Part shown: positions 5,709 through 7,806 of the stretch, in pieces
Layout: each line of letters starts with the position of its first letter
Numbering within the stretch: the first letter of the stretch is position 1
From: an uncultured Pelagibacteraceae bacterium
GTDB lineage: Bacteria > Pseudomonadota > Alphaproteobacteria > Pelagibacterales > Pelagibacteraceae
Assembly (NCBI GenBank): GCA_902624535.1
Contig: CACNYF010000001.1
Span: forward strand, 1-64,000
DNA length: 64,000 bases
Direction: 5' to 3'
Position numbers and translations under genes: made by a program
The notes under the pieces: model-generated
Told to the model about the DNA's origin: nothing
The model's database searches: none
What the model saw: only the letters and a program-made list of their open reading frames with translations

Positions 5709-6638
5709 ATGAAAATTCTAGGAATTGGAAACGCAATTGTAGATGTAATTTGTAAAGTTGACGAAAAATTTATTGAAAAAAATAAATTAACAAAAGGTAC
5801 AATGAAGCTGATTTTTGATGATAAAGAATTTCATTCTTTGATGACTGATCTTAAAATTGAAAAAACTATATCAGGAGGGTCGGTTGCTAATTCTATTGTA
5901 GGACTTTCACAACTGGGAAATGAAGTAGGTTTTATAGGTAAAGTAAGTGATGACGATTTGGGCGCTAAATATGAAAATGGATTAAAATCTGAAAATGTTC
6001 AATATTTTTACTTAAAAAAGAAAGAAGAATTGCCGACAGGAACATGTTTAATATTGGTAACACCTGATTCAGAAAGAACCATGTGTACATTTTTAGGTAC
6101 AGCAGGAAAAATTAATGAAAACGATGTAGATGCAAAAATTATAAAACAGTCTGAAATGATATTTTTAGAAGGCTATTTGTGGGACGAAGGTGAGCCTAAA
6201 AAAGCTTTTGAAAAAGCTATTAATAATGCAAAAAAAGTTGCCATGTCTCTATCTGATCAATTTTGTGTTGATAGACATAAGTCTCATTTCTTTGAATTAG
6301 TTAAAAATAAGTTAGATATTACTTTTGCAAATGAGCAAGAGGTAATGTCATTAATTGATGCTAAGAATTTTGAAGAAGTGATTGAGTTTGGAAAAAATTT
6401 AAACAAACAATTAGTTATAACAAGAGGAGATAAAGGAGCAATATTAATAAATGGTAGTGATGTGATTGAAAATGGGATTGAGAAGAGTCTTGATATAAAA
6501 GACCTTACTGGTGCTGGAGATTTATTCGCTGCTGGATTTTTACATGGATATTTAAACAATTATAGTAATATTGATTGTTTGAATAAAGGTAGAGAAATGT
6601 CATCCAAAATAATTCAACAAATTGGTGCTAGGCTTTAA
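5709..6638 (+). CDS. PfkB-family sugar/nucleoside kinase (adenosine kinase-like)
   Basis: This is a ribokinase/PfkB-fold kinase of about 309 residues. It shows the substrate-side motif GGSVANSIVGLSQLG, followed by GFIGKVSDDDLG, and the C-terminal signature DLTGAGDLFAAGFLHG with the catalytic Asp and anion hole. The overall pattern (start KILGIGNAIVD, then VICKVDE) resembles the alphaproteobacterial adenosine kinase-like subgroup, but the sugar or nucleoside substrate cannot be read from sequence. I use ATG 5709, which gives the canonical N-terminus and lies 1 bp after the nth stop. The open frame extends upstream to 5601 but that part would overlap nth. Its 3' end overlaps the minus-strand ArfA-like ORF by 11 bp. 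Confidence 0.9.
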   Translation: MKILGIGNAIVDVICKVDEKFIEKNKLTKGTMKLIFDDKEFHSLMTDLKIEKTISGGSVANSIVGLSQLGNEVGFIGKVSDDDLGAKYENGLKSENVQYFYLKKKEELPTGTCLILVTPDSERTMCTFLGTAGKINENDVDAKIIKQSEMIFLEGYLWDEGEPKKAFEKAINNAKKVAMSLSDQFCVDRHKSHFFELVKNKLDITFANEQEVMSLIDAKNFEEVIEFGKNLNKQLVITRGDKGAILINGSDVIENGIEKSLDIKDLTGAGDLFAAGFLHGYLNNYSNIDCLNKGREMSSKIIQQIGARL

Positions 6639-6744
6639 TATTTTTTCTATTATAACTACCTTTCCCTTTTTTAGCCTTTATAATTCTAGGTTTATACTTT
6701 CTTGTAAAAAGCTCTTTGGCATGAATATTTTTTTTTTTAAGCAT
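6628..6744 (-). CDS. ArfA-like ribosome-rescue peptide, 38 codons
   Basis: A very short minus-strand ORF was read by hand from ATG 6744 to TAG 6628. The peptide is highly basic and contains KAKKGKGSYNRK (residues 25-36 or so), which matches E. coli ArfA KNKKGKGSYMRK at 10 of 12 positions; the preceding residues (KPRII against RQRVE) fit as well. ArfA is an alternative ribosome-rescue factor that places its basic tail in the empty mRNA channel of stalled ribosomes and recruits RF2. This peptide ends soon after the motif, so it lacks the later basic residues of E. coli ArfA. Its ATG overlaps the end of the upstream response-regulator gene (ATGCTTAA, 8 bp), suggesting coupled translation. The family assignment is motif-based inference. 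Confidence 0.6.
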   Translation of the reverse strand: MLKKKNIHAKELFTRKYKPRIIKAKKGKGSYNRKNIKA

Positions 6745-7306
6745 TTAATTTGTAACCATCTTTAAGACTAGTAATAAACAATTTGTCTCTAAACTTTTTT
6801 TCGATTTTTTTTCTTAACCTGTATATGTGAGTTTCAACCGTGTGTGTTTCTAGTTTGGACTTATGATCCCAAACTTCTTTTTGTAAATCGGTTATAGGCA
6901 CTGGATTTTTTGATTTATTTAAAAAAACAACAATCTTAGCTTCTTTTTCAGTCAATGGTAACTTTTCAGAATTTCTATTCATTACTCTAGAGTTTAAATT
7001 TATAATATACTTTCCTATTTTAATATTATTCTGCTCATTAAATTTGTGCTTTAAAAAATTAATATTAATTATCTCGACCAATTTTATTATATTAATTGGA
7101 TACTCTTTTATATTGATTTGATTATTTAATTTAGATTTTTTTTCTCCAGAAATAATTAGAAAATTTTTGTCGTTTTGTATTTCATCAATTTTGCTTATAT
7201 TACCTAACATTATTTTAAAATTAAAGTGATCTTCAAGCTCCATTAAAATGTTAAATAATACATCAAATTTGTATATTATTAATGTTTGTTGATCTAACAT
7301 AAACAT
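6737..7306 (-). CDS. OmpR/PhoB-type DNA-binding protein with degenerate receiver
   Basis: This is a transcriptional regulator of about 189 residues. The C-terminal third is a clear OmpR/PhoB winged helix: LTEKEAKIVVFL, then ITDLQKEVWDHK, the recognition helix THTVETHIYRLRKKIE and the wing LKDGYKL. The N-terminal region has a receiver-like length and hydrophobic strands but no recognisable phospho-acceptor Asp pocket, so it probably does not work as a phosphorelay receiver. The open frame begins with TTG at 7318, inside the divergent gene; ATG 7306 or 7300 is more likely, and 7306 is used here. It overlaps the downstream ArfA-like ORF by 8 bp. Its targets cannot be told from sequence. Confidence 0.75.
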   Translation of the reverse strand: MFMLDQQTLIIYKFDVLFNILMELEDHFNFKIMLGNISKIDEIQNDKNFLIISGEKKSKLNNQINIKEYPINIIKLVEIININFLKHKFNEQNNIKIGKYIINLNSRVMNRNSEKLPLTEKEAKIVVFLNKSKNPVPITDLQKEVWDHKSKLETHTVETHIYRLRKKIEKKFRDKLFITSLKDGYKLNA

Positions 7307-7311
7307 ACAAT

Positions 7312-7806
7312 ATGACAATTGTAGTAAAAAATAAAGATACTCTTATTTATGACGATTTTATATTCAAATGTTGCGTAGGAAAATATGGTTTTACTAAAAA
7401 AAAAATTGAAGGAGATAAGAAGACACCAATTGGAAAATTTTCTCTGGAGTATATTTATTATAGATCTGATAAAAAAAACAAACCTAATACTAAGTTAAAA
7501 TCATTAAAAATAAAAAAAAATATGAGATGGTGTAATGATGTTAAATCAAAAAAAAATTATAATAAACTTATTAGAAAAAAAACAAAATTAAGATGTGAAA
7601 AACTTTTAAGGCATGACTATAAATATGATTATTTATTGCCCATAAAATTCAATTGGAATAAAACTAAAATTGGAAATGGAAGTGCTATTTTTATTCATCT
7701 AACAAAAAATTATAAACCTACAGCAGGATGCATAGGCATATCAGAAAAAGATTTTCTAATATTAATAAAGTTAATTAATAAAAATACAAAAATAAAAATT
7801 CTTTAG
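7312..7806 (+). CDS. YkuD-family L,D-transpeptidase domain protein
   Basis: YkuD-fold enzymes form 3-3 peptidoglycan cross-links or anchor proteins to the wall. The 164-residue protein has GDKKTPIGKF (34-43) and the active-site segment IFIHLTKNYKPTAGCIGIS with His129 and the nucleophile Cys140. That arrangement, with about 10 residues between His and the GC(I/V) motif, is the family signature. I see no signal peptide, as in other short stand-alone alphaproteobacterial members, so its location is uncertain. It diverges from the regulator gene with only a few bases between starts, and its stop overlaps the end of the convergent yggS-like gene by 4 bp. Confidence 0.82.
   Translation: MTIVVKNKDTLIYDDFIFKCCVGKYGFTKKKIEGDKKTPIGKFSLEYIYYRSDKKNKPNTKLKSLKIKKNMRWCNDVKSKKNYNKLIRKKTKLRCEKLLRHDYKYDYLLPIKFNWNKTKIGNGSAIFIHLTKNYKPTAGCIGISEKDFLILIKLINKNTKIKIL

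Follow-up and report, generated by a model that had tools for sequence, protein, structure and literature searches.

The ArfA proteins form an already known family, whose Escherichia coli member (YhdL) frees ribosomes stalled on messages lacking a stop codon and which is best described in beta- and gammaproteobacteria. Comparable small basic adapters, which recruit a release factor (RF) to non-stop ribosomes as the SAR11 protein reported here is expected to do, are ArfT of Francisella, which works with both RFs, and BrfA of Bacillus, which is made from a terminator-truncated message. Both are unrelated in sequence to ArfA (PMC6881298). A further factor, ArfB (YaeJ), backs up trans-translation in Caulobacter, among other Alphaproteobacteria (PMC8012679); it has its own RF-1 hydrolase domain of ~140 aa with a GGQ motif, whereas the SAR11 peptide is without GGQ.

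The E. coli protein places its tail (residues 31-48) in the vacant mRNA channel and extends the RF2 sheet by one strand, formed by residues 25-29. L19, L24 and F25 make up a patch that contacts V198, F217 and W319 of RF2; the substitution A18T blocks RF2 activation, and the protein is active when cut at Asn47 and inactive when cut after Met40 (PMC5378476). Its gene is expressed from a non-stop message via an internal stem-loop (PMC8012679). A 2024 survey covering over 15,000 genomes recorded arfA in none of 2,376 Alphaproteobacteria and stated that ArfA occurs only in Gammaproteobacteria, some Betaproteobacteria and a few Bacillus (PMC11633108). Our search of the literature on ArfA in SAR11 or Alphaproteobacteria returned only a pelagiphage report, in which gp30 of HTVC027P is named ArfA and reported as expressed (PMC12753301).

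The window analyzed here (64,000 nucleotides from an uncultured member of the Pelagibacteraceae) contains on its minus strand an ORF at 6628..6744 which, judged from its sequence, is a genuine ArfA gene of SAR11 (Pelagibacteraceae) in minimal form. It runs from an ATG to a TAG, and its translation (MLKKKNIHAKELFTRKYKPRIIKAKKGKGSYNRKNIKA*) confirms the 38-residue peptide of the sequence-only reading, which had also claimed a match to the E. coli ArfA core at 10 of 12 positions; the same count is obtained between KAKKGKGSYNRK of the window and KNKKGKGSYMRK of the E. coli sequence taken from NC_000913. That reading's further proposal of an ultra-short ArfA relative is supported by the Pfam ArfA model (PF03889), which recovers the window peptide at 29.4 bits (E=5.6e-7; curated cut-off 25.5) and assigns all 34 of 34 aligned SAR11 members to ArfA. 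In a phmmer search of the PDB the peptide aligns, weakly (E 0.08-0.16), to ArfA chains of ribosome rescue complexes and to nothing else. NCBIfam gives no match for any SAR11 ArfA member and leaves them unrecognized; some members may nonetheless carry automatic database annotation. The codons of the core KKGKGSYNR lie at 6647..6672 (minus strand); the degenerate DNA pattern for KKGKG[ST]xxR occurs once in the window and in none of 100 shuffled windows, with zero occurrences expected by chance. While a short, lysine-rich protein from an AT-rich genome does invite the suspicion of a chance ORF or chance resemblance, we consider this ruled out for practical purposes by the shuffles, the Pfam match and an open frame whose conservation extends to dozens of relatives, with 129 distinct conserved sequences in all.

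Both the frame and the motif KGKGS[YF]xR, on whose conservation the sequence-only reading had staked its case, are kept across the family Pelagibacteraceae. Across 128 distinct sequences of equal core length, an N, an L, the KKGKG stretch and an R are invariant and the S is present in 127, with all four glycine codons in use within the invariant KKGKG core. For pairs 75-97% identical, pN/pS is ~0.20 (mean pS 0.58, mean pN 0.11), and purifying selection on SAR11 arfA is clear. The start codon is ATG in 103 cases, TTG in 14 and GTG in 11.

The gene overlaps conserved neighbors on both sides. At its 3' end it shares 11 nt (6628-6638) with the 3' end of a convergent gene (5709..6638, plus strand; 66-84% identity), which we take to encode a PfkB-type sugar/adenosine kinase; a convergent overlap is also seen in E. 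coli, with mscL as the partner. At its 5' end, unlike E. coli arfA, it overlaps an upstream regulator gene by 8 nt (ATGCTTAA, 6737..6744, minus strand), the regulator ending in a TAA inside this overlap. The regulator (6737..7318, minus strand, 193 aa from a TTG) has a winged-helix effector domain of the OmpR/PhoB type (PF00486, E=4.2e-13), and a Pfam scan of it returned this DNA-binding Trans_reg_C domain only, with no receiver domain. Hence, the earlier statement that the ORF starts inside the stop of a response-regulator gene stands as regards the overlap, but the term response regulator is too specific. No receiver domain is recognizable in the N-terminal half of the regulator (~100 aa), and over its full length the protein is poorly conserved by comparison with its neighbors, at 31-68% identity among relatives.

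The overlap of the arfA start with the regulator stop, by 1-29 nt, is conserved in 98 of the 118 distinct loci with a measurable neighbor, the commonest sizes being 4, 1 or 8 nt. The earlier idea of coupling to the regulator is thus borne out in the arrangement of the genes, and the overlap is likely to be the expression device of SAR11 arfA, which would be translationally coupled to, or co-transcribed with, the regulator rather than expressed from a tmRNA-sensitive non-stop message. Control by an RNase III hairpin or a terminator as in E. coli was rejected: a search for the hairpin in 70 SAR11 loci gave a mean folding z of +0.17 over the 3' part of the arfA ORF, and no terminator-like site was found in this stretch of the window. 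SAR11 arfA therefore does not share the non-stop mRNA expression of E. coli-type arfA, a matter of regulation that membership of the protein family does not require. Since hairpin and terminator are lacking and the stop codon is an ordinary one, placed at the point from which the tail extends in E. coli, SAR11 arfA is probably not subject to the tmRNA feedback of its E. coli counterpart. The overlap with both neighbors might instead suggest that the ORF, open by accident, encodes no protein and serves the regulator-pfkB pair as a leader, antisense or 3' element. We give this next to no credence: conservation at the codon level with free synonymous variation contradicts it, no conserved RNA structure is apparent in the 70 loci (z ~0), and the whole ORF is cleanly absent from some genomes.

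The gene is widespread in SAR11, which ranks with the most abundant groups of ocean bacteria. A search with the window peptide recovers 30 of 61 relatives, all within the genus; with the Pfam ArfA model the count is 282 of 397 genomes in the order, all but three of them in a single family; and a profile built from 34 SAR11 ArfAs matches, at E<=1e-8 and with one copy each, 145 of the 198 Pelagibacterales genomes that are at least 85% complete. Most copies sit between the winged-helix regulator and the convergent pfkB, and several genera share the gene order nth - pfkB - (arfA, regulator) - ykuD, in which the bracketed pair is on the opposite strand. The ORF lies beside pfkB in 78 of 80 named Pelagibacteraceae single-cell genomes, the records nearest to the window by its PfkB being AG-453-K23 (94%) and AG-426-M19 (93%). 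In one genus (g5) arfA is ~1.5 kb from pfkB and adjoins a photolyase gene. In the genomes of another genus (g1) that were examined and are without arfA, two of them closed, the regulator and pfkB stops lie near each other, with the ORF cleanly absent. Both ArfA and the compact variant described below are lacking from about 10% of the well-assembled Pelagibacterales genomes, and an ArfA-type factor is therefore not universally needed. Outside Pelagibacterales the Pfam model, at a threshold of E<=0.01, matched only 12 of 385 genomes of the class, and the window's own family accounts for three of these; within the class, ArfA is thus concentrated in SAR11. These results change the map of ribosome rescue, placing ArfA in about three quarters of good Pelagibacterales genomes, in organisms without ArfB. 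As far as the searched papers show, the place of SAR11 ArfA, its near-ubiquity, its minimal form and its altered RF surface have not been described.

The SAR11 peptide aligns without gaps with residues 9-46 of E. coli ArfA (offset 8), the gap-free match to the gamma- and betaproteobacterial proteins running from N14 to ~K43 and including the KKGKGS[YF]xRK core. Like these, it is a single small basic protein; in contrast to the 72 aa of E. coli ArfA it has 34-45 aa, an N-terminus shorter by ~8 residues, no hydrophobic tail, and a gene with a normal stop codon and no hairpin or terminator. SAR11 members stop 2-10 residues past SYxR, in keeping with the earlier description of a protein trimmed after the motif, and so end at the equivalent of E. 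coli residues 43-46, between the Met40 and Asn47 limits. N14, I16 (mostly), L20, R28 (as R/K) and KKGKGS are kept and F25 appears as Y/F; the RF2-activating residues A18, L19 and L24 are not conserved, being K/R, D/E/N and K/R, such that NxxAK[DE]L...K[YF] replaces the E. coli NAIEALL..PLF. A18, L19, L24 and F25 are functional residues of the E. coli protein, not a signature that defines the family, and the phage ArfAs share the same changes. From these alignments, the putative channel-sensing end of SAR11 ArfA is conserved and its RF surface is a variant; because A18, L19 and L24 are changed and only F25 (Y/F) is kept, the predicted RF contact must differ in detail from that in E. coli. SAR11 thereby supplies a naturally minimal ArfA, 34-45 residues long, whose RF contact surface is altered.

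The remaining rescue machinery was surveyed in 28 SAR11 genomes. A split alpha-type tmRNA and SmpB are each present in 28 of 28, and the possibility that ArfA is the sole rescue system, tmRNA having been lost, was accordingly rejected. The RF-1-domain proteins are all 345-374 aa long; 27 of the genomes have two, by sequence reading one RF1 and one RF2, and the window's own 71%-complete genome has one, RF1 having been found in it and RF2 not. No ArfB-sized PF00472 protein was found in any of the 28. The backup role that ArfB plays in Caulobacter (PMC8012679) appears to be taken by ArfA in these SAR11 genomes, from which ArfB is absent. The SAR11 RF2 sequences that were read have the switch-loop Trp: those of G012, G063 and G061 show SPF and the switch loop IGWGHQIRSY, and that of G037 IGWGNQIRSY. 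The ArfA partner positions V198 (as I), F217 and W319 are thus all present, V198 and F217 being given in E. coli RF2 numbering. Five well-assembled genomes (G063, G066, G067, G072 and G130; loci L135, L137, L138, L140 and L141) are without ArfA, the compact form and ArfB; because tmRNA-SmpB is present in them, they may rely on trans-translation alone.

An ArfA homologue might have shifted its job, binding the empty channel but using RF1 or both RFs, as ArfT does, or blocking or hibernating ribosomes. The changes at A18, L19 and L24, which touch RF2 in E. coli (PMC5378476), and the divergence of the family seen in the compact GKGS-less class would fit such a shift. The residues retained in SAR11 ArfA, the intact partner positions of RF2 and the absence of ArfB argue against it, and we hold it to be unlikely. 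We prefer, with a probability of about 0.82, to read the gene as encoding a minimal SAR11 ArfA that performs RF2-type rescue as a backup to tmRNA-SmpB in ArfB's place, its expression being linked to the regulator. By homology, this protein would recognize ribosomes that have stalled on reaching the end of a truncated mRNA, its basic C-terminal KKGKGS[YF]xRK tail (in extended form KKGKGS[YF]xRKKK) being predicted to lie in the empty mRNA channel; it would then recruit an RF, most likely RF2, to cut the peptidyl-tRNA. RF2-dependent rescue as a backup to trans-translation is, on this comparison, its most likely role.

Weak profile matches in genomes without ArfA led to a class of compact peptides, in which the N-terminal half NPxAK.L.T...R.K.V.NKK is kept and GKGS is absent; its motif is KK-x-Y-x-RK, to which KH is often appended. 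In ArfA and BrfA the mRNA channel is bound through a KH motif (PMC8012679). The compact loci are found in Pelagibacterales (L082-L089, L113-L120, L317-L338) and in other Alphaproteobacteria (L339-L349), where related peptides read ...KSKKAYLRRPKH..., ...DKTKYSRKKKHK... and ...NKKTYTRKGKK.... The Pfam ArfA model does not reach this class; in profile comparison with ArfA its two clades score 37.8 and 27.5, whereas 60 column shuffles of each reach no more than 13.2. Among the 198 Pelagibacterales genomes 145 have ArfA, 33 the compact form and none both, a mutual exclusion that is partly phylogenetic because the compact form falls in two clades.

The SAR11 ArfA subtype is also found by tblastn in phages of Pelagibacter, Brevundimonas, Caulobacter, Roseobacter, Ochrobactrum and Erythrobacter, and IMG/VR yielded 193 confirmed relatives, of which 80 were kept. 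The phage proteins (gp30 of HTVC027P, HTVC034P, and those of Brevundimonas phages, Caulobacter phage Cr30 and Roseobacter phage CRP-212) share with the host form the N-terminal subtype NPxAK.L..PK[YF] and the KGKGS core. Because the SAR11 profile was used to select the viral relatives, the N-terminal motif that they share is in part a product of that choice; phage matches found with the single window peptide show the same motif. The phage copies are mostly longer and lie among phage genes (endolysin, clamp loader and terminase in the viral stretches sampled), whereas the SAR11 gene is chromosomal with its place kept across genera; the host neighbors of arfA were found in none of the 80 viral stretches. 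The closest viral core is identical to a host core at 28 of 30 residues (two differences), and in a tree of the 30 residues host and phage copies are intermixed, with the direction of transfer not readable from it. Such closeness to genes of pelagiphages and other alphaproteobacterial phages would be expected if the host gene were a phage-derived moron with no cellular rescue role, an explanation that we regard as very improbable given its constant chromosomal place between housekeeping neighbors in several genera, its low pN/pS and the finding of no phage genes next to host arfA. A cellular ArfA in SAR11 offers a reason why pelagiphages carry ArfA genes.

With the compact variant as query, nothing was found in phages. 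It is conceivable, at odds that we put somewhat short of even, that SAR11 and scattered Alphaproteobacteria use an unrecognized alpha-type branch of ArfA, in which the GKGS-less compact form still rescues with an RF, the two forms replace each other in Pelagibacterales and phages shuttle the long form. If true, RF-dependent rescue would be a second major backup in Alphaproteobacteria beside ArfB.

ArfA genes are common in marine viral contigs (L227-L306) and cultured alphaproteobacterial phages (L061-L067), mostly not so annotated; several of the Brevundimonas phage relatives are annotated as rescue factors. A set of viral ORFs (L247, L250, L260-L262, L283 and L299-L303) consists of fusions between an ArfA-like N-terminus and a conserved extension, whose end reads ...NKAGNYTKPTMRKRLFE.IKAGGKGGAPGQWSARKAQMLA..YK..GGGY.
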